DNA of 64,000 bases from Micromonospora sp. R77 (GTDB taxonomy: Bacteria > Actinomycetota > Actinomycetes > Mycobacteriales > Micromonosporaceae): the NCBI RefSeq assembly GCF_022747945.1, contig NZ_JALDST010000001.1, positions 6,448,001-6,512,000 on the forward strand, read 5' to 3'. The notes under the pieces are model-generated. The model searched no databases, was not told the DNA's origin, and saw nothing but the letters and a program-made list of their open reading frames with translations. This document shows, piece after piece, positions 2,026 to 50,393 of this stretch. Positions within the stretch are counted from its first letter, which is position 1; the number at the start of each line of letters is the position of its first letter. The translations under genes were made by a program, and so were the position numbers.

Positions 2026-2869
2026 CCGGAACGCTGCCCGCCGCCGACGAGCTGACCGTGGCCGGGCGGCGGATGCGCTGCCGGATCACCGGGGACGGCC
2101 CGCCGGTGGTGCTGCTGCACGGCATCGGCCGCACCCTCGACGACTTCACCGCGCAGCAGGAGCTGCTGGCCGCCGACCATCGGGTGCTCAGCGTCGACCT
2201 GCCCGGTCACGGCGGCTCCGCGCCGCTGGACGTCCCGCACACGCTGCCCGCGCTCGCCGCCGCGGTCGCCGACTTCCTGGACGCGGCCGGGGTCTCCTGG
2301 CCGGCCCGGCTGGTCGGCAACTCCTCGGCGGGGCGGTGGCGATGCGGCTCGCCGCCGACCAGGCGCACCGGGCGGCCAGCCTGGTGCTGGTCAACAGCGC
2401 CGGGTTCGGCCGGGAGGTGACCGTCGCGTTGCGGCTGCTCGCCGTGCGCCCGCTCGGCCGGCTGCTGCTGCGTCCCCATCCGGTGGTGGCCCGCCGCACC
2501 GAGCTGGCGATCTTCCGGGACCCCGCGTACGCCACCGAGGAACGGATCGCCACCGCCCTCGCGGTGGCCCGTCAGCCGCACGCCGCCCGGGTGATGCTGG
2601 AGCTGGTCCGCGACCTCGGCACCTGGCGCGGGGTCCGTCCCCAGTGGCGCGAGGAGCTGCTCGCCGCGGTCGCCGCCCTGGACCTGCCCACCCTGGTCGT
2701 CTGGGGCGACCGCGACCTGATCCTGCCCGCCGGCCACCTGGCGGCCGCCCGCGCCCGGCTGCCCGAGGCGCGCACCCACCTGTTTCCCGACACCGGGCAC
2801 ATGCCGCAGATCGAGCGCGCCCCGGAGTTCCACGCGCTGGTCACCGCCTTCTGGGCCGACCACACCTGA
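2022..2869 (+). pseudogene. Alpha/beta hydrolase, one frameshift at about 2324
   Basis: The start GTG overlaps the SDR stop. The N-terminal part reads PPVVLLHGIGRTLDDF (oxyanion-hole HG) in one frame; the rest reads GGAVAMRLAADQAHRAASLV ... LVVWGDRDLILPAGH ... FPDTGHMPQIERAPEF in the -1 frame. The break falls at the nucleophile elbow: GNSSAG would become the canonical GNSLGG with one more C in the run at 2322-2325. Nucleophile Ser, acid Asp (GDRD) and His (TGHMP) are all present once the frame is restored, so this is probably a 282-residue functional hydrolase hidden by a one-base sequence error, though a real mutation cannot be excluded. It ends convergently 6 bp from the photolyase gene. 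Confidence 0.85.
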
Positions 2870-2875
2870 ACCGGC

Positions 2876-4324
2876 TCAGGGCGGGTTGCTGCCGCGCTTC
2901 TCCTCCTGGGCCAGCACCGCCTCCCGGCGTTCCGGGTCGTCCCGGTCGGCCAGCTCGGCGGCCAGCCGGGGATCGGCCACCAGCCGTTCCCGGTTGCGGT
3001 GCAGGAACGCCTCGAACCCCCCGGTGTACGGGCACGCCAGGTCGCCGAGCACCCGCTCCGGCTGGTAGCGGCAGCCGGCGCAGTAGTCGCTGATCTCGTC
3101 GAGGTGCCCGCCGTCGACCGCGTACGGGCGGGTGTCGATGCGGCCCAGGTCGGCGTACTGGCTCATGCCGACGACCATCGCGTTCATCACCCACTCGGCG
3201 CCGTCCACGAACGACCGCTGGAACCAGTCGGCCAGCTCGTCGGGGCGCCAACCACGCTGCAACGCGTAGTTGCCGAGCACCAGCAGCCGTTGCGACTGGT
3301 GCGCCCACGCCCGGTCCCGCACCCCGGCGAGCACGTCCGTCAGGCAGCGCGCCTCCACCGCGTCGGCGTCCAGCTCGGCGAACCACTCCGGCAGCGGCTC
3401 GGTGGCGGGCAGCCAACGCCGGCCCCGGAAGTCCGGTTCCAGATACCAGTAGAGCTGCCAGAGGAACTCCCGCCAGCCCAGCAGCTGCCGGACGAACGCC
3501 TCCACCGCGCCCCGCGGCGCGGCGCCGTCCCGCCAGGCCCGCTCGGCGTCCCGGATCGCCGGCTCCGGGTCGAGCAGGCCCAGGTTGAACGAGGAGGAGA
3601 GCACGCTGTGCGCCAGCAGCGGGTCACCGTGGCTCATCACGTCGGCGTAGCGGTCGTACCCGACCAGGCGGTGGCGCAGGAAGTGCGCCAGCCGGTCCCG
3701 GGCCTCGGCGTGGGTGGCCGGATAGCGTCGGGGCCCGTCCCGGCCCACGAAACGGATCCCCTCGCGCTCCCAGCGGTCCAGGTCGGCGCGGACCTCGGCG
3801 TCGATCGCGTCCTCGGTCACCGGTGGTGGTGGCGGCACGTCCGGGTCGGGGCCGCGGGTGGTGGAGCGGGGCCGGCCGGTGGCCGGGCCACCGGTCAGCA
3901 CCGCGTGGCGCTGTCGGGCGTACCGGTAGAAGTCGGTCATCCGCAGCGGCGCCCGCCGGACCCCGTCGGCCCAGGCCGCGAAGTCCGCCCGGTCGGTGAC
4001 GAAGCCGCGCGGCGGCAGCACGGTCAGCCCCTCGACGGTACGGGCGAAGCCCAGCGCGGCCCGGCTGGTCGGGTGCACCAGCTCGACCGGCTCACCGAGC
4101 CGGGTCAGCGCCTCCCGGAACGTGCCGGCGCGCAGCAGCAGCGCCCGGTCTCCCAGCTCGGCGGCCCGGTGCCGCAGCGCCGACAGGATCAGGTGGGCCT
4201 TCTGCCGGTGCATCCGGCGCTGCCGGAACCACTCCTTCGCCTCCACCAGCAGCACCGGTTGGTCGTCGGCGTCGAGGAAGTGCGGACCGAGCTGGTCGGC
4301 GAGCAGCCAGCGGCGGGTGGGCAT
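2876..4324 (-). CDS. Iron-sulfur bacterial cryptochrome/(6-4) photolyase family protein
   Basis: 482 residues; opens RRWLLADQLGPHFLD, the N-terminus typical of deoxyribodipyrimidine photolyase-related (FeS-BCP, PhrB) proteins that bind FAD and repair (6-4) photoproducts with light. Four cysteines fit the [4Fe-4S] site of this group: Cys327, Cys415, Cys418 and Cys431. Their spacing (88, 3, 13) equals that of Agrobacterium PhrB as I recall it. The stretch WVMNAMVVGMSQYADLGRID is the conserved FAD-pocket region. The start ATG has GGGGAGA upstream on the minus strand. It is convergent with the hydrolase and has a GT2 gene upstream on the same strand. Confidence 0.9.
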   Translation of the reverse strand: MPTRRWLLADQLGPHFLDADDQPVLLVEAKEWFRQRRMHRQKAHLILSALRHRAAELGDRALLLRAGTFREALTRLGEPVELVHPTSRAALGFARTVEGLTVLPPRGFVTDRADFAAWADGVRRAPLRMTDFYRYARQRHAVLTGGPATGRPRSTTRGPDPDVPPPPPVTEDAIDAEVRADLDRWEREGIRFVGRDGPRRYPATHAEARDRLAHFLRHRLVGYDRYADVMSHGDPLLAHSVLSSSFNLGLLDPEPAIRDAERAWRDGAAPRGAVEAFVRQLLGWREFLWQLYWYLEPDFRGRRWLPATEPLPEWFAELDADAVEARCLTDVLAGVRDRAWAHQSQRLLVLGNYALQRGWRPDELADWFQRSFVDGAEWVMNAMVVGMSQYADLGRIDTRPYAVDGGHLDEISDYCAGCRYQPERVLGDLACPYTGGFEAFLHRNRERLVADPRLAAELADRDDPERREAVLAQEEKRGSNPP

Positions 4325-4388
4325 GGGTCGATTCTCCCCGGCCCGGCCCGGCTTGGCACGGTGGCCCAGGTGTCGGCGGCGTGTCGGG

Positions 4389-5274
4389 TCAGGCGGGCGC
4401 GCCGGCGCCGGCGGGGGCGGGCACGGCGGCGTTCGGCTGCGGCCGGGACAGCGTGGTCAGGGCGGCCTCCACGGCGGCCGGGAGCCGCCGCCGGTGGCGC
4501 AGCACCCAGCCGGCCTGGCGGGCCGCGTCGCGCACGCCGGCCCGGCCGTCCGGGTCGCGCCACGCCTCGACGGCCACCGCCCGCACCACGTCCACCGGCC
4601 GGCGCAGCGCCGCGGTGAGCAGCCGGTTGCGCGCCTCGACCCGGCGCCGGGCCGCGGGGTCCCGGCCGGCCGGCGCCGGCAGGTGGTGGCCACCAGCTCC
4701 GGCGTGTACGCGAGGTTCCAGCCCGCCGCGGCCAGTTCCATCGCCAGCAGCGCCTCCTCGCCGTACGTGCCGAGCCGCTCGGCGAACCCGCCGACCTGCC
4801 GGTACGCCTCCCGGCGCAGCACCACCGCGCAGGCCAGGAAGCCCAGCACGCTCGGCCCGGGGCGTCCGGGGCGGTGCCGATCGGCGCCTGCGCCATGCCC
4901 GCCGAGACCGGGTCGAGCCTGGCCTGCCGCCCGACGCGTACCTGCCCGGTCAGCAGGGCCGTCCGGGGGTGCCGCCGCAGCAGCTCCCCGGCCCGCTCCA
5001 GGGAGCCCGGCGCCCAGTACGAGTCGTCGTCCGCGAACGCCACGAACGGGGTGTCCGCCAGCGCCACCCCGACGTTGCGGGCCGCCCCCGCGCCGGCGTT
5101 ACGGCCCAGCGCCACCACCCGGACCCGGGGGAACGCCGCCGCCACGGCCGCCGGGGTGCCGTCGTCGGAGCCGTTGTCCACCACGATCACCGGCGCGGTG
5201 TGCCGGGGCAGCAGGTCGAGAAGCTGGTCGCGCCGGTTGCGGGTCGCCACCACGATCGTCACGTCCGTCGTCAT
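4389..5274 (-). pseudogene. Family 2 glycosyltransferase, two frameshifts
   Basis: N-terminus TDVTIVVATRNRRDQLLDLL is the GT-A fold start of family 2 transferases, then VIVVDNGSDDG and the nucleotide-sugar/metal motif FADDDSYW (DDD). The protein continues as LGFLACAVVLRREAYRQVGG and then ends VVRAVAVEAWRDPDGRAG in two further frames. Adding one base to the run near 4857 and one near 4684 gives a continuous product of about 295 residues (...PDAPGPSVLGFLAC..., ...ELVATHLPAPAGRDPAARR...). Both defects are single-base losses in short G/C runs, as in the hydrolase above, so sequencing error is the simplest reading. It would transfer a sugar from a nucleotide donor to an unknown acceptor. Confidence 0.82.
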
Positions 5275-5451
5275 GGCCGCCCTGGTACCCGGGGACCCCA
5301 GGGGTCACTCGGATCCACGTGGGATTCCCAGCCGGGTCCCGAACCGGCGGCACGCCGCCCCCGAGGAGGGCCCGGTCCCGGCGCGGCGGACCGAACACCA
5401 GGTGGCGTGGACCACGATCACGGCCCTCGCGAGGTGGCCGGACCCACCCGG

Positions 5452-5477
5452 GACGCATCATAGATACATGACGCATC
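5452..5477. repeat. 8-bp direct repeat around the GntR start codon
   Basis: GACGCATC occurs at 5452-5459 and again at 5470-5477, 18 bp apart, bracketing the GntR regulator's ATG at 5468. It could be an autoregulatory site or chance. The 193 bp between the glycosyltransferase and GntR starts otherwise hold only the divergent promoters. Confidence 0.3.
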
Positions 5478-6121
5478 CCAGCACCCGGGCGGTGCCGTCC
5501 GCCGCCGAGCGGGCCTACCGGCACCTCAAGGGGGCCATCCTGGAACAGGTCTACCCCGGTGGTCTGCTGATCAGCGAGGGCGAGATCGCCGAGGCGGCCG
5601 GGGTGTCCCGGACCCCGGTCCGGGAGGCGTTGCTGCGGTTGGAGTCCGAAGGGCTGGTGGCGCTCTACCCGAAGCGTGGCGCGCTGATCCGGCCGGTCTC
5701 CGCCCGCGAGATCGCCGACGTCATCGAGGCCCGCCGCCTGGTCGAGCTGCACGCCGCCGAGCGGGTCTGGCCGCGCCGCGCCGAACTGCGCGCCGACCTC
5801 GCCCGCCGGCTCGACGAGATGCGCCGAGCGCACGCCGCCGGGGACCTCACCGCGCTGATGGCCGCCGACCGGGCCTTCCACGCCACCGTCGTCGAGGCCG
5901 CCGGCAACGAGATCCTCGCCGAGCTCTACCACCGGCTGCGCGACCGGCAGCTGCGGATGGGTGAGGCCAGCTTCCGACTGTCGCCGGGTTGGGCCGAGGT
6001 GGCGCTCACCGAGCACGCCGACCAGCTCGCCGCCCTCGACGGCGACGACCCGGCCGCCTGGCTCGCCAGCGTCGGCGCGCACATCGACAACGCCGCGACC
6101 GTGCTGCGGACGCTCCGGTGA
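5468..6121 (+). CDS. GntR family (FadR/FCD subfamily) transcriptional regulator
   Basis: 217 residues. The N-terminal winged helix reads AAERAYRHLKGAILEQ...LLISEGEIAEAAGVSRTPVREALLRLE (residues 12-60), the classic GntR recognition helix. An all-helical FCD ligand domain follows (EARRLVELHAAERVW...RAFHATVVEAAGNEIL...EHADQLAALDG). The frame is open far upstream, but similarity starts at this ATG. The MFS transporter start GTG overlaps its stop, so the regulator and transporter are one unit and the regulator probably senses what the transporter moves. Confidence 0.92.
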   Translation: MTHPSTRAVPSAAERAYRHLKGAILEQVYPGGLLISEGEIAEAAGVSRTPVREALLRLESEGLVALYPKRGALIRPVSAREIADVIEARRLVELHAAERVWPRRAELRADLARRLDEMRRAHAAGDLTALMAADRAFHATVVEAAGNEILAELYHRLRDRQLRMGEASFRLSPGWAEVALTEHADQLAALDGDDPAAWLASVGAHIDNAATVLRTLR

Positions 6122-7407
6122 CCGCGGCCACCGGCCGCCGCCCCGCCGTCCTGGTGTACGCCGTCGCGGTCACCGCGTACGTGGCGGCGGTGTTCCACCG
6201 CAGCTCGCTCGGCGTGACCGGGGTGGACGCCGCCGACCGTTTCCACATCAACGCCGCCGCCCTGGCCACCTTCTCCGTCGCCCAGCTCGCCGTCTACGCG
6301 GCCATGCAGATCCCCGTCGGGGTGCTGCTCGACCGGTACGGCTCCCGCCGCCTGCTGCTCACCGGCGGGGCGCTGATGGTCGCCGGGCAGCTCTGCTTCG
6401 CCGTGGCCACCGACGTCCCGCTCGCCGTCGCGGCCCGGGTCCTGGTCGGCCTCGGCGACGCGATGACCTTCATCAGCGTGCTGCGGATCGTGGCGTTCTG
6501 GTTCCCCGGCCGGCGCAACCCGCTGCTGGTGCAGCTCACCGGCACCTTCGGCCAGCTCGGGGCGGTGCTGGGCGCCGTACCCCTGGTGGCGCTGCTGCAC
6601 CACGCCGGCTGGACGCCGGCCTTCCTCACCGCGGCGGCGCTCGGCGCGACCGTGCTGCTGCTGGTGCTGGTCGCCGTCCGGGACACCCCGCACCGCGCGC
6701 ACCCCGGCGCGGTCGCCCCGGACCTCGCCGCCGTACGCCGGCAGCTCGCCGCCGCCTGGGGACAGCCCGGCACCCGCCTCGGCCTCTGGACCCACTTCGT
6801 CACCCAGTTCTCCGGGGCGGTCTTCGCACTGCTGTGGGGCTATCCGTTCCTGGTCCAGGGGCAGGGGTTGTCGCCGACCGCGGCGGCGTCGCTGCTCACC
6901 CTGATGACGGTGGCCACCCTGGTCTGCGGGCCGGTCGTCGCGCACCTCTGCGCCCGGCACCCGTTCCGCCGCTCGGTGGTGGTCTTCGCGATCACCGCCG
7001 GCACCGCCGCCGTCTGGGCGGTGGTACTCGCCTGGCCCGGCCGCGCACCGCACTGGCTGCTGGTCGCCCTGGTGGTCGTCCTCGCGGTCAACGGCCCCGG
7101 CTCGGTGATCGGCTTCGACTACGCCCGCACCTTCAACCCGGTGCACCGGATCGGCAGCGCCACCGGCATCGTCAACGTCGGTGGCTTCGTCGCGTCGATC
7201 CTGCTGGTGCTCGCCGTCGGCGTGGTGCTCGACCTGGCCACCCCGGCCGGCGCGGCCACCCCGCCGCTGAGCGCGTTCCGCTGGGCGTTCGCCGTGCAGT
7301 ACGTGCTCTGGGCCGTCGGCGCCGTCCAGGTGCTGCGGTACCGCAACGCCGCCCGCCGCCGGTACGCCGCCGAGCACCCTGCGGTCCCGACCCCGGTGGC
7401 CGCCTGA
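6118..7407 (+). CDS. MFS transporter
   Basis: 429 residues with about 12 hydrophobic segments: VYAVAVTAYVAAVFHRSSLG at the start, and the MFS loop motif QIPVGVLLDRYGSRRLLLTGG after TM2 (G-x-x-x-D-R-x-G-x-R/K). Start GTG overlaps the GntR stop by 4 nt. The N-terminal FHRSSLGVTG pattern is common in actinobacterial MFS proteins close to the nitrate/oxalate-type branch, but the substrate is not deducible. It ends 4 bp before a convergent DoxX-like gene. An inner-membrane exporter or importer, probably controlled by the coupled GntR protein. Confidence 0.92.
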   Translation: MTAATGRRPAVLVYAVAVTAYVAAVFHRSSLGVTGVDAADRFHINAAALATFSVAQLAVYAAMQIPVGVLLDRYGSRRLLLTGGALMVAGQLCFAVATDVPLAVAARVLVGLGDAMTFISVLRIVAFWFPGRRNPLLVQLTGTFGQLGAVLGAVPLVALLHHAGWTPAFLTAAALGATVLLLVLVAVRDTPHRAHPGAVAPDLAAVRRQLAAAWGQPGTRLGLWTHFVTQFSGAVFALLWGYPFLVQGQGLSPTAAASLLTLMTVATLVCGPVVAHLCARHPFRRSVVVFAITAGTAAVWAVVLAWPGRAPHWLLVALVVVLAVNGPGSVIGFDYARTFNPVHRIGSATGIVNVGGFVASILLVLAVGVVLDLATPAGAATPPLSAFRWAFAVQYVLWAVGAVQVLRYRNAARRRYAAEHPAVPTPVAA

Positions 7408-10949: not shown

Positions 10950-11335
10950 CACATCCGGCCAATGGGTCCGATCACCGCCCATCATCCGGCGGCCGGCAGC
11001 CGGTGGCCCGGCCACGCGGTGCAGGGGCCGCCGGGTGAGCCGAATGTCCCGTTCCGGTGTGACCGGGGGCATCCTCAGGCCGGAATCGTGGCGGGGGCCG
11101 GGTCGTTACAGTCACCGTACGACCGAGTAGCACCGCCGAACACCGGCCTGGTGGACGGGCCGGGCCCGGAATGCGGGTGGCCGGCCGGTCGTTACACCTG
11201 GTCCCGGCACCGCGAAGAGGCCCCCGCCCCGCGAGCCAGCCGGTCGATGACTTTCCCCCTTGTACGTGTTGGGCGCCTGACGGTGCTTGCGTTCCCCCGC
11301 CCCCATGGGGAGCGCCGACCCCCGAGGAGCTTTCG

Positions 11336-11926
11336 ATGAACACGATGCTGCGTAAGAGTGTGCTGGGTATTGCTGGTCTGGCTTTCACCGGTGGTGTGTT
11401 CGCCGGTCCGATCGCCGCTCACGCCGACACCACCCCCGTCACCACCGGTAAGCCGGTCGCGGCGGTGCAGGCCGACAAGCCGGACACGAGCAAGCTGATC
11501 CCGCACGGTGTGCAGGGCAACCAGTCGCACATCGACCTGAACGACGATCAGGTGTCGAACGCGAAGGCGATCATCGCCGCCACGAAGAAGGCCGGCCTGC
11601 CGGAGCGGGCCGCGGTCATCTCGATCGCGACCAGCCTGCAGGAGTCGAAGCTGGAGAACCTGGGCCACCTGGGCGACAAGAACGATCACGACTCGCTGGG
11701 TCTGTTCCAGCAGCGCCCGTCCAGTGGTTGGGGCACCCCGGAGCAGATCACCGACCCGGAGCACTCGACCCTGGCGTTCCTGAAGGGGTTGAAGCAGGTC
11801 GACGGCTGGCAGGACATGCCGCTGACCGACGCCGCCCAGACCGTGCAGGTGTCGGCCTACCCCGACGCGTACGCGCAGTGGGAGCAGCAGGCCGCCGACC
11901 TGGTCGCCCAGCACTGGACCAGCTGA
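11336..11926 (+). CDS. Small secreted transglycosylase-like protein, paralog 2
   Basis: 196 residues; signal peptide LRKSVLGIAGLAFTGGVFAG with cleavage around AHA-D. The mature protein has a short Thr/Lys linker, LIPHGVQGNQSHIDLNDDQ, then the same lysozyme-like domain as paralog 1 (ISIATSLQESKLENLGH, NDHDSLGLFQQRPSSGWGTP, AQWEQQAADLVAQHW). ATG has GAGGAG at 11324-11329. It is almost identical to paralog 3; they differ in a few residues (for example GNQSHID versus GAQSHVD). Probably exported and acting on peptidoglycan; the enzymatic role is inferred from the fold-like motifs only. Confidence 0.87.
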   Translation: MNTMLRKSVLGIAGLAFTGGVFAGPIAAHADTTPVTTGKPVAAVQADKPDTSKLIPHGVQGNQSHIDLNDDQVSNAKAIIAATKKAGLPERAAVISIATSLQESKLENLGHLGDKNDHDSLGLFQQRPSSGWGTPEQITDPEHSTLAFLKGLKQVDGWQDMPLTDAAQTVQVSAYPDAYAQWEQQAADLVAQHWTS

Positions 11927-11938
11927 CCATGAACGAAA

Positions 11939-11976
11939 CGCTGGCCGGCACCCCGAACCCGGGGTACCGGCCAGCG
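11939..11976 (+). terminator. Terminator after secreted paralog 2
   Basis: 17-bp arms (CGCTGGCCGGCACCCCG at 11939-11955, right arm 11960-11976) with an AACC loop and one C/A mismatch. The same element after paralog 3 pairs perfectly. Confidence 0.85.
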
Positions 11977-12153
11977 GCGTATGCACCTGCGGAGCGGACG
12001 ACAACAGTCCGAAGTCCAGTGAGATGCGGTGGTGAGTGAAGCCGGGCGGCAGCCGACGTACCCCGACGGGTGTGTGGTCCTGGTGACGACGTGGCCTGGC
12101 ACGCCCGGGCGGACCGGGCCCCAGCCCGAAACCGCAACCAACGGCCAGGAAAA

Positions 12154-19598: not shown

Positions 19599-20127
19599 AC
19601 GCCCTGCTCGGCTGCCGGGTGCCGCCCGTGTGCCGGCTGCGTGTTCCGGGCAGTCGTTTCGGGTCCTTTCGGGGGCCGTGGGTGGGGCCTGATCGCGGCC
19701 GTGCCGCCTCTCGCCGCACCGCAGTGCGGTGGGTCGATCGGAGAGCGATGTGGTGGCTGGCGGCCGGTGCGGCAGCCGATGGGCGGTGGTGGCGGGCCCC
19801 ATGGTGGTGCGTTAGCCAGCGGTGCGCGGAGTGTCCGGTTCGGGTGTGACCGGGGGCATGCTCAGGCCGGAATCGTGGCGGGGGCCGGGTCGTTACAGTC
19901 ACCGTACGACCGAGTACCACCGCCGAACACCGGCCTGGTGGACGGGCCCGGCCCCGGAATGCGGGTGGGCGGCCGGTCGTTACACCTGGTCCCGGCGTCG
20001 CGAAGAGGCCCCCGCCCCGCGAGCCCGCCGGCCGATGACTTTCCCCCTTGTACGTGTTGGGCGCCTGACGGTGCTCGCGTTCCCCACCCCCATGGGGAGC
20101 GCCGACCCCCGAATGGAGCTACCCCCC

Positions 20128-20715
20128 ATGAACACGATGCTGCGTAAGAGTGTGCTGGGTATTGCTGGTCTGGCTTTCACCGGTGGTGTGTTCGCCGGTC
20201 CGATCGCCGCTCACGCCGACACCACCCCCGTCACCACCGGTAAGCCGGTCGCGGTGCAGGCCGACAAGCCCGACACGAGCAAGCTGATCCCGCACGGTGT
20301 GCAGGGCGCGCAGTCGCACGTCGACCTGAACGACGAGCAGACCGCCAACGCGAAGGCGATCATCGCCGCGACGAAGAAGGCCGGTCTGCCCGAGCGGGCC
20401 GCGGTCATCTCGATCGCGACGAGTCTGCAGGAGTCGAAGCTGGAGAACCTGGGCCACCTGGGTGACAAGAACGATCACGACTCGCTGGGTCTGTTCCAGC
20501 AGCGCCCGTCCAGTGGTTGGGGCACGCCGGAGCAGATCACCGACCCCGAGCACTCGACCCTGGCGTTCCTCAAGGGGTTGAAGCAGGTCGACGGGTGGCA
20601 GGACATGCCGCTGACCGACGCCGCCCAGACCGTGCAGGTGTCCGCGTACCCGGACGCGTACGCCCAGTGGGAGCAGCAGGCCGCCGACCTCGTCGCCCAG
20701 CACTGGAACAGCTGA
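20128..20715 (+). CDS. Small secreted transglycosylase-like protein, paralog 3
   Basis: 195 residues, near-identical to paralog 2: the same signal peptide LRKSVLGIAGLAFTGGVFAG, linker, LIPHGVQGAQSHVDLNDEQ, and domain with ISIATSLQESKLENLGH and NDHDSLGLFQQRPSSGWGTP. GGAGCT 8 nt before the ATG is the ribosome site. Compared with copy A one alanine codon is missing in the linker. The signal peptide and leader are the best conserved parts, which suggests recent duplication or gene conversion. Function as for paralog 1: exported, probably peptidoglycan-active, unproven. Confidence 0.87.
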   Translation: MNTMLRKSVLGIAGLAFTGGVFAGPIAAHADTTPVTTGKPVAVQADKPDTSKLIPHGVQGAQSHVDLNDEQTANAKAIIAATKKAGLPERAAVISIATSLQESKLENLGHLGDKNDHDSLGLFQQRPSSGWGTPEQITDPEHSTLAFLKGLKQVDGWQDMPLTDAAQTVQVSAYPDAYAQWEQQAADLVAQHWNS

Positions 20716-20727
20716 CCATGAACGAAA

Positions 20728-20765
20728 CGCTGGCCGGCACCCCGAACCCGGGGTGCCGGCCAGCG
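20728..20765 (+). terminator. Terminator after secreted paralog 3
   Basis: Perfect 17-bp stem (20728-20744 with 20749-20765) and an AACC loop, 12 bp after the stop codon. Confidence 0.87.
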
Positions 20766-20956
20766 GCGTACCCGAATCTCGGTTCGTTGCCGGTCCTGAC
20801 GACGACGCCGCAGCCCACCGCGAACCGTCACCGAAAGCACGAATCACGTCGTGACAGCGGTCACCAGAGCTGACGGAACACCCGATGCGGTGGCATGGTT
20901 GTGCAGAGCGTCGGTGTGTCCAGTGTCCCCGGGCCTCACCTAAATAGCCTTCGCGG

Positions 20957-21059
20957 AATACCGTTCGGCTGGAGCCGCGTCGTGCCACTCGCCGAGAGGC
21001 GACCTGCACACCGACGCCCAGGCGCCGCCCCGACCCACCGGTCGGGGCGGCGCTGTTTT
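20957..21059 (+). ncRNA. Candidate structured small RNA upstream of the formate dehydrogenase operon
   Basis: A TAGCCT -10 box (20945-20950) is followed by about 100 nt of strong structure. A 4-bp hairpin CGGC-TGGA-GCCG (20966-20977) comes first. Then GCGTCG (20977-20982) pairs with CGACGC (21012-21017), TGC (20983-20985) with GCA (21006-21008), and TCGCC (20989-20993) with GGCGA (20998-21002) closed by a GAGA tetraloop. A 14-bp terminator with TGTTTT follows. It does not match any riboswitch I know. fdhA has its own TATGTT box (21124-21129) after the terminator, so this is probably an independent RNA. Confidence 0.55.
21022..21059 (+). terminator. Intrinsic terminator with T run
   Basis: GCGCCGCCCCGACC (21022-21035), loop CACC (21036-21039), complement (21040-21053), then TGTTTT. 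One of the few hairpins here with a real T tract. Confidence 0.88.
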
Positions 21060-21168
21060 CCGCCCCGGACGCAGGCCCCGAAAATGGTCCGCCACTCGAG
21101 TCGCGGCCGTCGGAGGGCTGGCCTATGTTCAGAAGGTCAGCTTCCGTCAGCGGGGGAGGGGTGTCCGG

Positions 21169-24100
21169 GTGGGGTTCAGGACCTTCATCGAGGGATGGCC
21201 GGTCTACCGTCAGCTCACCGGCACCGACCCGCTCGGCCGGGGTGCCGCGGCGCAGTCGCCCAGGTCGGCCGGCCTGACCGCCCGGACGGAGCGCGCGGAC
21301 AGCATGGCTCGTTCGGTCTGCCCGTACTGCGCGGTGGGCTGTGGGCAGCGGGTGTTCGTGAAGGACGGGCGGGTGACCCAGATCGAGGGCGACCCGGACA
21401 GTCCGATCTCCCGGGGGCGGCTCTGCCCCAAGGGTTCGGCCAGCAAGTCGCTGGTCACCAGCCCGCTGCGGCAGACCAAGGTCCGCTACCGCCGGCCGTA
21501 CGGCACGGAGTGGGAGGACCTGGAGCTCGACGTCGCGCTCGACATGATCGCCGACCGGATCCTCGCCGCGCGCGAGGAGACCTGGGAGGACGTCGACGAC
21601 GCGGGTCGGCCGCTGAACCGGACGCTCGGGTTCGCCAGCCTCGGTGGCGCCACGCTGGACAACGAGGAGAACTACCTCATCAAGAAGTTGTTCACGGCGG
21701 CGGGCGCACTCCAGATCGAGAACCAGGCCCGTATTTGACACTCCGCCACCGTCCCCGGTCTGGGGACCAGCTTCGGTCGCGGCGGCGCGACGGACTTCCA
21801 GCAGGACCTGGTCAACGCTGACGTCATCGTCATCCAGGGCTCCAACATGGCCGAGGCCCACCCGGTGGGTTTCCAGTGGGTGATGGAGGCGAAGAAGCGC
21901 GGCGCGAAGGTCTTCCACGTCGATCCGCGGTTCACCCGCACCAGCGCGGTCGCCGACGCCTACCTGCCGATCCGGGCGGGCACCGACATCGCGCTGCTCG
22001 GCGGCGTGGTGCGCTACATCCTGGACAACGAGCTGGACTTCCGGGAGTACGTGCTGGCGTACACCAACGCGGCGACCATCGTCAGCGAGCAGTTCGTCGA
22101 CACCGAGGACCTGGACGGCCTCTTCTCCGGCTACAACCCGGAGACCGGCTCGTACGACCACACCAGCTGGCAGTACGAGGGGCACGAGGGCCAGGCTGGC
22201 ACCAAGGGCACCGGCAAGGAGCGGGACAGCGCGTCCGGCCTGCGGCACGAGTCGCACGGTGCCCCGGTGGGGGCGCAGACCCAGCGGGACGAGACGTTGC
22301 AGCACCCCCGCTGCGTCTACCAGATCCTCAAGCGGCACTTCTCCCGCTACACCCCGGAGATGGTGGAGCGGGTCTGCGGCATCCCGCAGGAGAAGTTCCT
22401 GGAGTTGGCCCGCGCCTGGACGGAGAACTCCGGCCGGGAACGCACCGGTGCGCTGATCTACTCGGTGGGCTGGACCCAGCACAGCGTCGGCGTGCAGTAC
22501 ATCCGCACCGGGTCGATCATCCAGATGCTGCTGGGCAACATGGGCCGGCCGGGCGGCGGGATCCTGGCCCTGCGCGGGCACGCCAGCATCCAGGGCTCCA
22601 CCGACATCCCGACGTTGTTCAACCTGCTGCCGGGTTACCTGCCCATGCCGCACCACGCCGACCACCCGACCTTCGACGAGTGGGTGGACAGCATCCGCCA
22701 CCCGGGGCAGAAGGGCTTCTGGGGCAACTCGCGGGCGTTCGCGGCGAGCCTGTTGAAGGCGTACTGGGGCGACGCGGCGACGCCGGAGAACGACTTCTGC
22801 TACGGCTACGTGCCGCGGATGACCGGGGACCACGGGACGTACCAGACGGTGCTGAACATGATCGACGGCAAGGTCAAGGGCTACTTCCTGCTCGGCCAGA
22901 ACCCGGCGGTCGGCTCGGCGCACGGCAGGGCCCAGCGCCTGGGCATGGCGAACCTGGACTGGCTGGTCGTCCGTGACCTGTTCATGATCGAGAGCGCCAC
23001 GTTCTGGAAGAACAGCCCGGAGGTCGCCACCGGCGAGATCGTGCCGCAGGAGTGCCGTACCGAGGTGTTCTTCCTGCCCGCCGCCTCGCACGTGGAGAAG
23101 GAGGGCACCTTCACCCAGACCCAGCGGCTGCTGCAGTGGCGCGAGAAGGCCCTGGAGGCACCGGACGACGCCCGTTCGGAGCTGTGGTTCTTCTATCACC
23201 TGGGCCGGGTGCTGCGGGAGAAGCTGGCCGGCTCCGACAAGCCCCGGGACCGGGCGCTGCTGGATCTCGCCTGGGACTATCCGACCCACGGTGACCGGGC
23301 CGAGCCGAGCGCCGAGGCGGTGCTCAAGGAGATCAACGGCTACGAGGTGGCGACCGGCCGGCCGCTGTCCGCGTTCCACGAGGCCCGCGACGACGGCTCC
23401 ACGGCCGTCGGCTGCTGGATCTATTCCGGCGTCTACGCCGACGGCGTCAACCAGGCGGCCCGCCGCAAGTCGCGGCACGAGCAGGACTGGGTGGCCGCCG
23501 AGTGGGGCTGGGCGTGGCCGGCGAACCGGCGCATCCTCTACAACCGCGCCTCCGCCGACCCGCAGGGCCGCCCGTGGAGCGAGCGCAAGAAGTACGTCTG
23601 GTGGGACCCGGAGTCCGGCGAGTGGACCGGGTACGACGTGCCGGACTTCGAGAAGACGAAACCGCCGACGTACCGGCCGCCGGAGGGCGCCTCCGGTCCG
23701 GAGGCCCTGGCCGGCGACGACCCGTTCGTCATGCAGGGCGACGGCAAGGCCTGGCTGTACGCGCCGACCGGGGTGCTCGACGGCCCGCTGCCGACGCACT
23801 ACGAGCCGGCCGAGTCGCCCATGCGCAACCCGATGTACGCCCAGCAGGCCAACCCGACCCGCAAGATCTACGACCACCCGGTGAACCGGATCAACCCGAG
23901 TCCGCCGGAGGCGCACAGCGACGTCTTCCCGTACGTGTTCACGGTCAGCCGGCTCACCGAGCACCACACGGCCGGCGGCATGAGCCGCACCGTGGGTCCG
24001 CTCGCCGAGCTGCAGCCGGAGATGTTCGTGGAGGTCTCCCCGGAGTTGGCCGCCGAGGCCGGCCTGGCGCACCGGGGCTGGGCGCACCTGGTCAGCGGTC

Positions 24101-24483
24101 GGGCGGTGATCGAGGCGAAGGTGCTGGTGACCGACCGGCTCACCCCGTTGCGGGTGGACGGCCGGGTGATCCACCAGCTCTGGCTGCCGTACCACTTCGG
24201 CACCGAGGGCCTGGTCACCGGCGACTCCGCCAACGACCTGTTCGGCATCACCCTGGACCCGAACGTGCTGATCCAGGAGAGCAAGATCGGCACCTGCGAC
24301 GTACGGCCCGGGCGGCGGCCGACCGGTCCGGCCCTGCTGGAGATGGTGGCGGACTACCAGCAGCGGGCCGGCATGACGGCCGACCGGCGGATTCCGATGG
24401 TCACCACCGGTGGCGACGACGCGGCCGGCAGCACCGACGAGCGTTCCGCCGAGGCGGCGCGGGACGGAGGCCAGGATGGCTGA
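21169..24483 (+). CDS. fdhA: Selenocysteine-containing formate dehydrogenase, alpha (catalytic) subunit
   Basis: 1104 residues when the TGA at 21736-21738 is read as selenocysteine 190: ...IENQARI-Sec-HSATVPGLGTSFGRGG matches the FdnG/FdoG active site (QAR-x-U-H). The N-terminal [4Fe-4S] motif is Cys51, Cys54, Cys58, Cys86 (CPYCAVGC...GRLCPKG). The rest is a molybdopterin/bis-MGD oxidoreductase (QGSNMAEAHP, RPGGGI, GYFLLGQNP). It oxidises formate to CO2 and passes electrons to the Fe-S subunit. GTG start has GGGGGAGGG about 8 nt upstream; the N-terminal FIEGWPVYRQLTGTDPLGRG extension is typical of actinobacterial enzymes. I see no Tat signal. The frame is intact except for the Sec codon. The ATG of fdhB lies inside its last codons. 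Confidence 0.95.
21736..21767 (+). promoter_or_regulatory. Selenocysteine UGA codon and bacterial SECIS hairpin
   Basis: TGA 21736-21738, then 18 nt, then GGTCT (21757-21761) as apical loop on a GTCCCC/GGGGAC stem (21751-21756, 21762-21767). The GGUCU loop and the 18-nt distance from UGA equal those of E. coli fdhF as I recall it. It would recruit the SelB encoded downstream. Confidence 0.9.
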
Positions 24484-25532
24484 CGCCAGGTTGCCGGACG
24501 CCAACAGCCTCTACGGCCCGCTCGACCCGGCCCCGGACGCCGGCTGGGTCGAGGCGGGGCCTCGGATGGGGTTCTTCACCGACACCAGCGTCTGTATCGG
24601 CTGCAAGGCGTGCGAGGTGGCCTGCAAGGAGTGGAACGGCGTCCCGGACTCGGGCTTCGACCTGCTCGGCATGTCGTACGACAACACCGGCGCGTTGACG
24701 GCGAACTCGTGGCGGCACGTGGCGTTCATCGAGCAGCCCCGCCCGGCGGGTCACCGCACGCCGCCGTTCGAGGGCAAGCGACCGGGCCGTCGGTGAGCGC
24801 GGCGAGCGCGGCGGTCGCCGCCGGGGTGGGCAACGACAGCGGCACCGATCCGGGGGTGCCGCAGGGCCAGCCGCAGGCCGCGGCGCGGATGGCGGCCGGG
24901 CCGGAGTTCCTCGGCATGCCGGGCACCCGCCGCCCGGTCGGGGCAGCGGCGTCGAGTCGCGCACCGATTTCCGCTGGCTGATGATGTCGGACGTCTGCAA
25001 GCACTGCACCCATGCGGCCTGCCTGGACGTCTGCCCGACCGGGTCGCTGTTCCGCACCGAGTTCGGCACGGTCGTGGTGCAGGAGGACATCTGCAACGGC
25101 TGCGGCTACTGCATCTCCGCCTGCCCGTACGGGGTGATCGACCAGCGCAAGGACGACGGTCGGGCGTGGAAGTGCACGCTCTGCTACGACCGGCTCGGCG
25201 CCGGCATGACCCCGGCCTGCGCGCAGGCCTGTCCGACGGAGTCGATCCAGTTCGGGCCGCTGGACGAGCTGCGCGAGCGCGCCGCCGGTCGGGTCGCCGC
25301 GCTGCACGAGCGGGGCGTGCCGGAGGCCCGCCTCTACGGCAACGACCCGACCGACGGGGTGGGCGGGGACGGCGCCTTCTTCCTGCTGCTCGACGAGCCG
25401 GAGGTGTACGGCCTGCCGCCGGACCCGGTGGTCACCACCCGGGACCTGCCGAAGATGTACCGGCGGGCCGGCCTGGCCGCGCTGGCCATGGTGGCGGCGG
25501 CCGTCGCCGCGTTCGTCGGAGGTTCATCGTGA
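24476..25532 (+). pseudogene. fdhB: Formate dehydrogenase beta (4Fe-4S) subunit, two frameshifts
   Basis: Electron-transfer subunit with four ferredoxin-type clusters: CIGCKACEVACKEWN, CKHCTHAACLDVCP, CNGCGYCISACPYG and CTLCYDRLGAGMTPACAQACP. A C-terminal hydrophobic helix (AGLAALAMVAAAVAAFVGG) anchors it. The protein runs in frame until about 24785, continues in the -1 frame (GPSVSAASAAVAAGVGND...) to about 24940, then shifts -1 again to GVESRTDFRWLMMSDVCKHC. Each break is repaired by one base in a G/C run. Start ATG overlaps the fdhA end, and the next gene's GTG overlaps this stop. Repaired length is about 352 residues, normal for the family. Confidence 0.87.
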
Positions 25533-26859
25533 GTCCGGACCGCGCCCCGGTGGGTGCCCTGTTCCGTCGGTTCCGTGACCGGCTCGCCGCCGAGGGCCCG
25601 GAACGCCTCGGCGGCCCCGGACCCCGGGCCACCCACGGTGCCAAGGTGACCGCTACCTCCGGCTTCCGCCAGGAGACGAGCGGCCCGGCCGCCGGGAACG
25701 GCGAGAACGGCACCCGGGTCGCGGGTCCGGGCGACGGAAGTGGCCCGCTGACCGGGTCGGACAACGGCAGCCGGGCCACCGGCACCGGCGCGGGCGTGGC
25801 CCGCACCGACGCGGGAGCTGCGGAGGTACGACTGGCCCACACCCGCCGCGCGACGCGGAGCCGGTCGACCGGCCGCGCCGCAGGGGCGGCCGGGGCGGCC
25901 GGGGTGGCGGCGGCGAGCAGCTCACAGTGCCGCCCGCCGAGTTCACCTCCTACTACGGGCGACCGATCCTCAAGGCCCCGGTGTGGAAGTGGGACATCGC
26001 CGCCTACCTGTTCACCGGTGGCCTGGCGGCCGGGTCGTCGCTGCTGGCGGCGGGCGGGCAGCTCACCGGGCGGCCGGCGCTGCGCCGGTCGGCCGGGTCG
26101 TCTCGCTGGCGGCGGTGAGCGCGAGCGCGTACTTCCTGATCAACGACCTGGGCAAGCCGAGCCGGTTCCACCATGCTGCGGGTGGCGAAGGTGACCTCGC
26201 CGATGTCCGTCGGCACCTGGATCCTGACCACGTTCGGCCCCGGCGCCGGTGTCGCGGCGATCGCCGAGGCCGCGCCGTGGCTGCCCGAGCGCGGGCTGCT
26301 CGGGCTGGGCCGCCAGGTGCTGCCGCCGGTCGGGCACGCCGCCGGGCTGGTCGCCGCGGTCACCGCGCCGGCCCTGGCGACGTACACCGGGGTGCTGCTG
26401 GCGGACACGGCGGTGCCGTCGTGGCACGAGGCGTACCGGAACTGCCGACCATCTTCGCGGGCAGCGCCCTGGCCAGCGGCGCCGGCGTGGGTCTGATCGC
26501 CGCGCCGCCGGCGCAGGCCGGCCCGGCGCGGCGCTTCGCGGTCGCCGGCGCCGCCCTGGAGCTGTGGGGGCGCACCGGGTGGAGAACCGGCTGGGGCTGC
26601 TCAGCGAGCCCTACGCCACCGGCACCGCCGAGCGGCTGCTGCGCGCCGGGCGGGCGCTGACCGCCGCCGGCGTGGCCGGCGCGCTGGTGGGCCGCCGCAG
26701 CCGGCTGCTCTCACGCTCTCCGGCGGCGCGCTGCTGGCCGCCTCGGTCTGCACCCGGTTCGGCATCTTCCACGGGGGTGTCGCCTCGGCGAAGGACCCGA
26801 GGTACACGGTGGTGCCGCGGCGGGAACGCGCCGACCGGCGGGCGGCCGAGCAGGGCTGA
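25529..26859 (+). pseudogene. NrfD/PsrC-type membrane subunit of formate dehydrogenase, about six frameshifts
   Basis: The conserved pieces lie in successive frames: PPAEFTSYYGRPILKAPVWK and WDIAAYLFTGGLAAGSSLLA; VVSLAAVSASAYFLINDLGK; MLRVAKVTSPMSVGTWILTT; ELPTIFAGSALASGAGVGLI; VENRLGLLSEPYATGTAERL; and GGALLAASVCTRFGIFHGGV...TVVPRRERADRR at the end. These are hallmarks of the NrfD quinone-linked membrane subunit. Indels fall near 25.9 kb, 26096, 26171, 26442, 26571 and 26713. The first 130 residues are a Gly/Thr-rich, low-complexity extension. It would pass electrons from the Fe-S subunit to quinones. Start GTG overlaps the fdhB stop. The pieces themselves show no stop codons, which favours sequence error. 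Confidence 0.8.
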
Positions 26860-26904
26860 CACCTCGCCGCGCGGGCCGGTGTCCGCTGTGGTTGACTGCT
26901 GCGT

Positions 26905-26997
26905 GGAGGCGTTCAGGCGGCTGGTGCCCCTCCCGGTCTTCAAAACCGGTGTGGTCCGGGACCCGGGCCAGGCGGGTTCGATTCCCGTCCGTCTCCG
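26905..26997 (+). tRNA. selC: Selenocysteine tRNA (UCA anticodon)
   Basis: GGAGGCG (26905-26911) pairs with CGTCTCC near the 3' end with one G-U. The anticodon arm is CCGGT (26933-26937)/ACCGG (26945-26949) with loop CTTCAAA; anticodon TCA is 26940-26942 and would read UGA. The variable arm is long (GGTCCGG/CCGGGCC), the T arm reads GCGGG-TTCGATT-CCCGT. Length, long variable arm and UCA anticodon identify tRNA-Sec. CCA is not encoded (TCCA follows the discriminator G). It sits between the fdh and sel genes. Confidence 0.95.
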
Positions 26998-27021: not shown

Positions 27022-28315
27022 ATGCCCGACGGCACGGCCGACCCACGGCGGCGCGTGCCGCGCACCGACGGCGCTGCTCGCCGACCCGGCGCTCGCCGCC
27101 GCCGCCGGCACGCTCGGCCGCGACCGGGTCAAGGCCGCCATCGGCCGCGCGCAGGAGCGGGCCCGCCGCGGTGAGATCACCCCCGACGAGGTACGCGACG
27201 CGGCGCTGGCGACGCTGCCCAGGCCGACCCGCGGACGTGCTCAACGCCACCGGCGTCGTGCTGCACACCAACCTCGGTCGGGCCCCGTTGTCGACCGGCG
27301 CCGTCGCGGCGCTGGTCGCCGCCGCCGGACACCGACGTGGAGCTGGACCTGCGGACCGGCCGGCGGGCCCGGCGCGGCCAGGGATGCCCTCGCCGCGCTC
27401 GCCGCCGCCGTACCCGACGCGCCGGCCGTGCACGTGGTGAACAACGGCGCCGCCGCGCTGGTGCTCGCCGCCACCGCCCTCGCCGCCGACGCCGAGATCG
27501 TGGTCAGCCGCGGCGAGCTGGTCGAGATCGGCGACGAGTTCCGCCTGCCCGACCTGCTGGCCAGCACCGGGGCCCGGCTGCGCGAGGTGGGCACCACCAA
27601 CCGCACCACCCTGGCCGACTACGCCGCGGCGGTCGGCCCGCGTACCGGTTTCGTGCTGAAGGTGCACCCGTCGAACTTCCTGGTCACCGGCTTCACCTCC
27701 GCCGTGCCGGTCCGCGAGCTCGCCACCCTCGGTGCCGGTGGTGGCCGACATCGGGGTCCGGGCGCTGCCCCCGACTCGCTGCTGCCCGCCGAGGCCGGAC
27801 GCCGCCACCGACCCTGCAGGCCGGCGCGGCCCTGGTCACCGCCAGCGGCGACAAGCTGCTCGGCGGCCCGCAGGCCGGCCTGCTGTTGGGCACCGCCGAG
27901 CTGGTCGACCGGCTGCGCGGCATCCTGGCGCGGGCCCTGCGGGTCGACAAGGCTCACCCTGGCCGCGCTTGCCGCCACCCTGCACGGGCCGACCACCCCC
28001 ACCCGGTCCGCGCTGCACGCCGACCCGGCCGCGCTGCGGGAACGCGCCGAGCGCCTGCGCGACCGGCTCGGCGAGGACGGCCGCAAGGCCGAGGTGGTGC
28101 CCTGCGCGTCGGTGGTCGGCGGTGGCGGCGCACCCGGCGTCGACCTCGACTCGTGGGCGTTGAGCCTCCCCGAGCGCTACGCGGAACCGTTGCGCACCGG
28201 TGAGCCGCCGGTCCTCGGTCGGGTGCTGCACGGGCGGCTCCTGCTCGACCTGCGCTGCGTACCGGCCGACGCGGATCCGGTGCTGCTGGCGGCGATCATG
28301 CGGGTGGGTGAGTAA
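27022..28315 (+). pseudogene. selA: L-seryl-tRNA(Sec) selenium transferase, about nine frameshifts
   Basis: PLP enzyme that converts Ser-tRNA(Sec) to Sec-tRNA(Sec) with selenophosphate. Conserved pieces appear in turn: [80 protein letters not shown] with [35 protein letters not shown], holding the PLP lysine; and [20 protein letters not shown] to the end. Most breaks look like single-base insertions near 27070, 27230, 27330, 27378, 27731, 27794, 27813 and 27951, plus one deletion near 27770. All catalytic segments are intact. It lies 25 bp after tRNA-Sec, and selB starts 3 nt after its TAA. The start ATG is tentative. Confidence 0.85.
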
Positions 28316-28318
28316 CCG

Positions 28319-30077
28319 GTGTGGGTCGTCGCCACCGCCGGGCACGTCGACCACGGCAAGTCGACGCTGGTGCGGGCGCTCACCGGGATGGAGCCGGACC
28401 GGTGGGCGGAGGAACGCCGCCGGGGCATGACCATCGACCTCGGCTTCGCCTGGACCACGCTCCCGTCGGGCGGCACCATCGCCTTCGTCGACGTGCCCGG
28501 CCACGAGCGCTTCGTGCCGAACATGCTCGCCGGTGTCGGCCCGGTGCCGGCCGCGATGGTCGTCGTCGCCGCCGACGAGGGCTGGATGCCGCAGTCGGGC
28601 GAGCACCTCGCCGCGCTGCACGCGCTCGGGGTGTCGTACGGCCTGCTGGTGGTCACCCGCGCGGACCTGGCCGATCCCGGGCCGGCGCTGGCGCAGGCCT
28701 GGCCGAGACTCGCCGCCACCTCCCTCGGCGCGGTCGAGGCGGTGGCGGTGAGCAGGGCGACCGGTGCCGGCCTGCCGCAGCTGCGGGACGCCCTGGACCG
28801 CCTGGTGGCTCGGCTGCCCGACCCGGCGCACGACGTCCCGGTCCGGCTCTGGGTGGACCGCTCGTTCACCATCCGGGGCAGCGGCACGGTCGTCACCGGC
28901 ACCCTCGGCGGCGGCCGGCTGGCCGTCGGCGACCAGTTGGAGCTGGCCGACACCGGCGAACCGGTCCGGGTCCGGGGCCTGCACTCCCTGGGCACCGCCC
29001 ACCAGCGGGTGGACGCGGTGGCCCGGGTGGCGGTGAACCTGCGCGGGGTGTCCCGCGACCGGGTGGCCCGCGGCGACGCCCTGCTCACCCCGGGCCGGTT
29101 CCGGCGGACCGACCTGCTCGACGTGCGCCTCGCCGGTGACCCGGCGGCGGACCTGCCGGCCACCCTCACCCTGCACGTCGGCTCGGCCGCCGTGCCGGCC
29201 AGGTCCGGCCGCTCGGCCCGGACACCGTCCGGCTGCGCCTGGCCCGGCCGCTGCCGCTGCTCGTCGGCGACCAGGCGCTGCGCGACCCGGGACGCCACCA
29301 CGTGGCCGGTGGGGTCACCGTGCTCGACGTGGACCCGCCGCCGCTGTCCCGCCGGGCGCTGGCCGCCGCCCGGGCCACCGTCCTGGCCGGGCTGGACGGC
29401 CGACCGGACCTGCCCGGCGAGCTGCGCCGTCGTCGCCTGGCCCGGGCCGGCGAGCTGACCCGGATGGGCGTGCCGGTCACCGTCGCGCCCGTCGCCGGTG
29501 ACTGGCTGGCCGACCCCGACCACTGGCGGGACCTCCGCGTCCGGCTCACCACGGAGGTCACCCGGTACGCCGGCGAGCATCCCCTGGAGCCCGGCATGCC
29601 GGTCGACGTGCTGCGCCAGCGCCTCGACCTGCCCGACCGGGCGCTGGTGGAGGCGCTGGTCCGGACACCACTGCGGGTCCGCGCCGGCCGGGTCACCGCG
29701 ACCACCGTCGACGCGCTCCCGGACCCGGTCGCCCGCGCCGTCGACCGGGTCCGCGCCGAGTACGGCGACCGGCCGTTCCAGGCCCCCGAGACGCACCGCC
29801 TCGCCGACCTGGGGCTGGGGCCCGGGAGATCGGCGCGGCCGTCCAGGCCGGGGCGCTGCTGCGGCTGGCGGAGAACGTGGTGCTGCTGCCCGGCGCGGTC
29901 GACGACGCCGTCAGGGTCCTGGCCCGCCTGCCGCAGCCGTTCACGCTCAGCGCCGCCCGGCAGGCCCTGGACACCACCCGCCGGGTGGCGGTGCCGCTGC
30001 TGGAGCTGCTGGACCGGCGCGGCGCGACCCGCCGGCTGCCCGACGACGCCCGCGAAGTGGTGGCCCCGCCGGCCTGA
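28319..30077 (+). pseudogene. selB: Selenocysteine-specific elongation factor, two frameshifts
   Basis: GTPase that delivers Sec-tRNA to UGA codons next to a SECIS. The N-terminal EF-Tu-like domain has GHVDHGKST (P loop, residues 9-17), MTIDLGFAWT (switch I), DVPGHERF (G3) and TRADL (G4 variant). LWVDRSFTIRGSGTVVTGTL starts domain II. The C-terminal part holds winged-helix domains that bind SECIS RNA (GMPVDVLRQRLDLPDRALVE ... FTLSAARQALDTTRRVAVPL). A base is missing near 29202 (restoring VPARVRPLGPDTVRLRLARP) and near 29822 (LGPREIGAAVQAGALLRLAE). Repaired length is about 586 residues, normal for actinobacterial SelB. With fdhA's SECIS and selC it forms a self-contained decoding set, except that selD is not in the window. 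Confidence 0.88.
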
Positions 30078-47394: not shown

Positions 47395-47404
47395 GCCGGT
47401 ACCA

Positions 47405-47495
47405 CCCACGTGGGAGAGACCGCCCGACAGTGACGGGGCGGCGCCGAAGGGGCAGCTTCCTCCCCGGAACCTCTCAGGCAGAAGGACCACGTGGG
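47405..47495 (+). promoter_or_regulatory. Glycine riboswitch (single aptamer)
   Basis: CCCACGTGG (47405-47413) and CCACGTGGG (47487-47495) form P1. Between them are the conserved elements GGGAGAGAC, GCGCCGAAGGGGCA and CTCTCAGGCAGAAGGACC of the gcvT-type glycine aptamer. Only one aptamer with these motifs is seen. Glycine binding would promote expression of gcvP, which starts 76 nt later. Confidence 0.92.
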
Positions 47496-47570
47496 CAGGC
47501 ACTGTGGAGCGCCTCCGGGCGTGACTCAGGGGGAGGCCGACTTGTCGACCTCGCCCGCAGGAGCGCCCCC

Positions 47571-50393
<2,823 letters not shown>

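Follow-up and report, generated by a model that had tools for sequence, protein, structure and literature searches.

A putative selenocysteine-containing formate dehydrogenase and its covarying SECIS hairpin in a Micromonospora-like actinomycete

In Escherichia coli, SelB binds the SECIS hairpin and delivers selenocysteine (Sec)-tRNA to the UGA codon, as set out in two publications (PMC1794560, PMC13188914). The alpha subunit of formate dehydrogenase (FDH) is the commonest bacterial selenoprotein family in the survey of PMC5029168, with 1,276 proteins in 822 organisms. Sec-FDH clusters of actinobacteria are already in print, and the locus described here is an ordinary, textbook example. The fdnG-fdxH-selABCD region of Corynebacterium aurimucosum is a Sec-FDH cluster that contains an internal UGA and has sel genes nearby (PMC2830990), and FDH-O of Streptomyces incarnatus, accompanied by selABCD, belongs to another with an internal UGA (PMC4498112). 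A literature search for selenoproteins in Micromonospora, judged by title and the start of the abstract, found nothing on the topic.

The window, by which we mean the whole stretch of 64,000 nucleotides that was analyzed, very likely carries the alpha gene of a membrane-anchored, molybdopterin-dependent Sec-FDH from a Micromonospora-like actinomycete, the in-frame UGA of which would be decoded via a SECIS element. This level of confidence derives from the gene family, the Sec column, the conserved UGA, the covarying hairpin, the gene cluster, selC, and selD.

The alpha-subunit gene and its in-frame TGA

Two features define the gene and its apparent stop codon:

21169..24483, + strand: FDH alpha subunit, fdnG/fdh type, read through the TGA (ORF list, read-through translation, NF041513 and TIGR01553 matches, structure alignment)
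21736..21738, + strand: TGA predicted to be read as Sec, residue 190 (read-through, X column of 1h0h_A and 1kqf_A, conservation of the TGA)

The plain ORF list contains two pieces in one shared frame, 21169-21738 (189 amino acids) and 21847-24483 (878 amino acids), and the GTG start at 21169 is the assignment of that list. Translating the TGA at 21736-21738 as a residue yields a protein of 1,104 residues, in which the next stop is the terminal TGA only. The read-through protein matched NF041513 (formate_DH_Act) with 1965.1 bits over residues 6-1066 (cut-off, 1400) and TIGR01553 with 939.1 bits (cut-off, 814.2). It contains Fe4S4, molybdopterin, and dinucleotide-binding domains, and the closest solved structures are 1h0h, 1kqf, and the 8cm4 group. 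In two alignments, residue 190 (TGA-CAC) was placed opposite the X-H of 1h0h_A and 1kqf_A. The X in this column stands for Sec. With profile scores above curated cut-offs and a Sec codon followed by His at the active-site column, the gene would count as a Sec-FDH. The initial annotation had proposed one long FDH frame across this TGA and an alignment of the joined translation to FdnG/FdoG; the profile match and the 1kqf_A alignment support its reading. It had also warned that a gene caller would split the gene, which is true of the plain ORF list but not of an annotated Arthrobacter homolog, which has the TGA and stands as one CDS.

The QAR-x-U-H context, with X and then His at the same column, is common to this protein, to E. 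coli FdnG (1kqf), and to the 1h0h FDH. Unlike those two, the protein shows no twin-arginine motif in its N terminus (inspected by eye), and for this reason the alpha subunit probably faces the cytoplasm. Compared with the actinobacterial FDH of NF041513, the alpha gene belongs to the same family, has the same UGA, has the same neighbor genes in its relatives, and shows no difference that we could see; the difference lies in four neighbor genes, which are frame-broken in this assembly.

A scan of 20700-21800 returned no sigma-70-like promoter site. Between the upstream ORF and the FDH gene, at 20728-20765, lies a terminator-like GC-rich stem of 17 pairs on the minus strand. Two stretches of the window, approximately 11000-11980 and 19720-20780, match one and the same pair of sites in the related genome G122 at about 86 to 90% identity, which suggests a duplicated gene upstream of the FDH.

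The predicted SECIS hairpin and the evidence for its conservation

The SECIS element of E. coli fdhF has a GGUCU loop 18 nt after its UGA, as does the hairpin found here:

21751..21767, + strand: predicted SECIS hairpin of the bacterial type, with a stem of 6 bp and a GGUCU loop (exact pairing, folding, conservation, chance test)

The stem is formed by GTCCCC (21751-21756) and GGGGAC (21762-21767), enclosing the loop GGTCT (21757-21761), and the gap from the TGA is 12 nt to the stem and 18 nt to the loop. The coordinates and distances given in the initial annotation were exact. The GUCCCC/GGGGAC stem differs in sequence from that of fdhF. The bacterial SECIS consensus in Fig. 2 of PMC13188914 comprises an apical loop of 3 to 9 nt, an upper stem of 4 to 16 bp, at least one G in loop positions 1 and 2, a distance of 16 to 37 nt between the UGA and the apical loop, and a minimum free energy of -7.5 kcal/mol or lower. 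Judged by that figure, the hairpin at 21751-21767 fits, with a GGUCU loop of 5 nt, a stem of 6 bp, a distance of 18 nt, and an energy of -10.3 kcal/mol.

The energy of the 17-nt hairpin corresponds to a z score of -2.40, and 6 of 200 shuffles were equally good. Stretches of 48 nt (z = -0.81) and 40 nt (z = -0.31) were ordinary in comparison with shuffles. Because the DNA is so GC-rich here, folding energy alone proves little, and we dropped it as proof of a SECIS element, given that the two longer stretches fold little better than shuffled sequence.

The chance test separated the stem from its loop. Counting both strands, the window contains 1,110 TGAs, 13 of which are followed by a six-pair stem at the same spacing; a first-order Markov model gave a mean of 4.7 per 64 kb. 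When the loop motif was required as well, the TGA at 21736 was the only one among the 1,110, and 200 simulated sequences yielded none. The bare stem is not rare in the window, whereas the combination of stem and loop is. In a SECIS search of the strain's own genome, in which 150 of 10,775 candidates were scored, this element reached 73.1 bits and the next candidate 18.1 bits (E = 7.71); among those scored, no second SECIS of the same type was convincing.

The frequency of bare stems in the window is one point in favor of a different explanation, in which the TGA arose by a plain nonsense mutation or a sequencing error and the hairpin results incidentally from encoding VPGLGT in GC-rich DNA. 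The other is the coding constraint itself. Because the stem overlaps the codons for V-P-G-L-G-T, the protein sequence fixes most of the stem's bases. Pairs free on both sides are those between the third bases of Val and Gly and between the third bases of Pro and Leu. Four of the six pairs are, on this reading of the codons, largely set by the residues, and only two test the hairpin independently.

Conservation across relatives weighs against this explanation. The codon survey covered 142 fetched loci, with some genomes present twice, and its TGA loci represent 92 distinct 66-mers. The Sec site is TGA in 139 of the 142 loci and TGC (Cys) in 3. All six pairs are retained in 138 of the 139 TGA loci and five pairs in the remaining one. 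At the Val-Gly wobble pair, these loci have C-G (103), T-A (27), T-G (5), G-T (3), or G-C (1); at the Pro-Leu wobble pair, they have C-G (135) or G-C (4). All 139 have T as the last base of the loop codon, which encodes Gly or Ser; among downstream glycine codons, 387 of 4,055 have T there.

Covariation was tested on 38 sequences out of 65 distinct 48-mers. In this set, 99.6% of the alignment cells pair. Both sides had changed in 16 cells against a shuffled mean of 4.4, and the covariation score was 0.312 against 0.163 for shuffles; neither value was reached in any of the 500 shuffles, which ignore relatedness. Sliding the partner along gave no double changes in the 38 sequences. Double changes occurred at 2 pairs, a number not above shuffles (97 of 500 were as high). 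That the hairpin goes beyond chance is, in our judgment, settled by comparison and not by energy. With a TGA conserved in nearly all loci, paired changes at the wobble positions, a loop codon that ends in T throughout, and a combination of stem and loop that is rare in the window, we rejected a nonsense mutation joined to a chance hairpin; its probability is very small.

The three Cys loci are one from Nonomuraea (L054) and two from the same order as the window's genome (L162 and L165). They are 63.5 to 67.0% identical over the compared stretch. Five of the six stem pairs can form in L054 and three of six in each of the other two, and the loops (GGCCT in L054, GGGCT in L162 and L165) all lack the GGT loop motif. 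These loci read V-V-G-L-G, and the change in the stem is partly due to that change of residue. In the two whole genomes with Cys loci (G188 and G510), we found no SelA match and no tRNA-Sec above the cut-off, and SelA, SelB, and tRNA-Sec were not found in the flank of the third locus. We read the three loci as ordinary Sec/Cys exchange. The initial annotation had counted close homologs with a Cys codon and no hairpin as contrary evidence. Cys homologs do occur, at 3 of the 142 loci, but at the identities given above they are distant and not close.

Sec-decoding genes and frame breaks in the cluster

Downstream of the alpha gene, we assigned the following features:

24410..25532, + strand: iron-sulfur (beta) subunit of FDH, with single-base indels at 24780 and 24929
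25532..26860 (limits approximate), + strand: membrane anchor subunit of the NrfD type, with several indels that split it
26905..26996, + strand: selC, tRNA-Sec, anticodon TCA (RF01852, 73.2 bits; cut-off, 47)
27022..28314, + strand: selA, selenocysteine synthase (G122 counterpart, TIGR00474, 408.5 bits)
28319..30077, + strand: selB, Sec-specific elongation factor (G122 counterpart, TIGR00475, 262.9 bits, plus SelB-wing_3)

Thus selC, followed by homology to selA and selB, lies within 6 kb of the end of the alpha gene. The G122 counterpart of the anchor matches PF03916 with 68.2 bits. The anchor of E. coli FdnGHI is of the cytochrome b type, in contrast to the NrfD type here. The selD gene lies elsewhere in the chromosome (C1:4423556-4424464; 382.8 bits; cut-off, 125) and is open, with no internal stop; it is presumably a Cys form. 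In the C. aurimucosum and S. incarnatus clusters, by contrast, selD is nearby.

By analogy with E. coli and other FDHs, SelB would recognize the GGUCU-loop hairpin 18 nt downstream and bring Sec-tRNA(Sec), encoded by selC, to the UGA at 21736. SelA would make this Sec-tRNA from seryl-tRNA with selenophosphate supplied by SelD. Sec would then act as a ligand of the active-site Mo or W and take part in formate oxidation, and electrons would pass through the iron-sulfur subunit to the NrfD-type anchor and from there probably to the quinone pool.

The neighborhood was surveyed at 83 loci, 19 of which were too short and 64 of which had enough downstream sequence, including the Cys locus L054. Genes for the iron-sulfur and NrfD subunits followed in all 64. 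Within the fetched flank, SelA was found at 43 loci, SelB at 42, both at 40, SelD at 29, and tRNA-Sec at 47; SelA and SelB were not both found there in 24 of the 64. At five loci (L083, L090, L091, L093, and L098), iron-sulfur and NrfD genes follow the alpha gene and the flank contains no sel gene or tRNA-Sec; the strains of the first three show another Sec-FDH alpha copy.

The reading frames of the cluster were compared with those of G122, a relative with a 98% identical alpha gene, in which the same genes are open. This comparison revealed frame breaks in selA and selB that the initial annotation had not noticed. The alpha gene has no indel; of frame-changing indels, the iron-sulfur gene has 2, the anchor gene 8, selA 14, and selB 4. 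Because of these breaks, the SelA matches in the strain's own genome are four fragments of one locus, and the SelB match (241.1 bits) falls just under the cut-off of 242.25. No second intact SelA or SelB was seen in the genome.

One way to account for these observations is that the cluster is real and that Sec decoding was lost very recently, with pseudogenes now in place of selA, selB, and both small-subunit genes and the UGA stopping translation at residue 189. The indel counts and the single SelA and SelB loci fit such a loss, as does the concentration of indels in selA while the alpha gene of the same cluster is free of them. Between 24.7 and 29.9 kb, 29 short indels, each of one or two bases, set the window apart from G122, 20 of them missing and 9 extra in the window. 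The extra bases show no homopolymer preference (1 of 9 in runs of at least three), a point against sequencing error. The missing bases, however, favor homopolymers, with 11 of 20 in runs of at least three, compared with 16% of bases. Away from the indels, substitutions relative to G122 keep an alpha-like bias for the third position in selA (41 of 59) and selB (80 of 124), the value for the alpha gene after the Sec codon being 57 of 83. Elsewhere in the window, frame-changing indels also occur in 12 of 37 crude gene calls, as self-cancelling pairs in two of these cases, and this points to a general problem with errors; the 37 calls are 42 rows minus five in or overlapping the cluster, and some may be spurious. 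Stem, loop, and tRNA-Sec are intact. Recent loss is therefore an unlikely reading of the locus. If it were true, the gene of the catalytic subunit would still be pristine, as would the UGA and the SECIS element within it, and the alpha subunit would now be a stub of 189 residues. Given the homopolymer bias of the missing bases, the third-position bias, and the indels elsewhere in the window, sequencing error is the most likely cause of the breaks in selA, selB, and both small subunits. The strain itself is probably competent to decode Sec, with the caution that selA and selB read as broken in this assembly.

Those frame breaks are also the only point in favor of near-cognate read-through of the UGA, or its reading as another residue, without SelB and SECIS. 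Such decoding hardly agrees with a covarying hairpin whose loop is conserved, with selC nearby, with an aligned X in solved structures that stands for Sec, or with Cys at the same site in 3 of the 142 loci, and we consider it extremely improbable. Decoding as Sec is the preferred reading, and Sec at residue 190, as the initial annotation had it, is supported by the family, the active-site column, the conserved TGA, the covarying hairpin, selC, and selD.

Distribution of the gene and its consequences

Within the genus, 140 of 151 genomes, the strain's own included, were matched at E = 0; each of the matches listed contained at least one internal TGA. Across the phylum, 114 of 396 genomes were matched with an E value of 1e-150 or better, and an internal TGA was present in most of these matches; the near-full-length matches without a stop came from G188, G510, G180, and G461. 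Of the 80 named loci retained, 37 were 80 to 91% identical, 34 of them from Micromonospora, which makes this genus the most likely source of the window. Some genomes have two Sec-FDH alpha genes; G032 carries copies at C1:4916570-4919833 and 5059476-5062790 and has two SECIS matches.

Four genomes of the genus (G113, G043, G073, and G145; 5.2 to 5.6 Mb) keep tRNA-Sec and a full-length SelA. They contained no close Sec-FDH, no FDH-type SECIS among the scored candidates, and no stop-interrupted PF00384 gene, and a selenoprotein was not found in them. A search for the UGSC family was uninformative, with no match in any control genome. At locus L181 of G113 (G113:C1:1757000-1772000), ORFs for SelD and SelB flank SelA at approximately 2866-7201, and next to these genes there is a Cas1-like ORF together with a repeat array, an arrangement seen by eye. 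In G039, selC and SelA lie at a contig start, and the FDH gene may simply be cut off there. Farther along the window, a glycine riboswitch (47401-47499; RF00504; 68.5 bits) overlaps the beginning of a long ORF from the crude calls (47435-50393), one that is matched in G122.

The present analysis adds a covariation test of the hairpin that is set against coding constraint. The apparent stop would be a recoded sense codon, and the catalytic subunit of the FDH would be missed if genes were called naively. Sec-FDH is, it seems, carried by most of the genus, to judge from the 151 genomes sampled.
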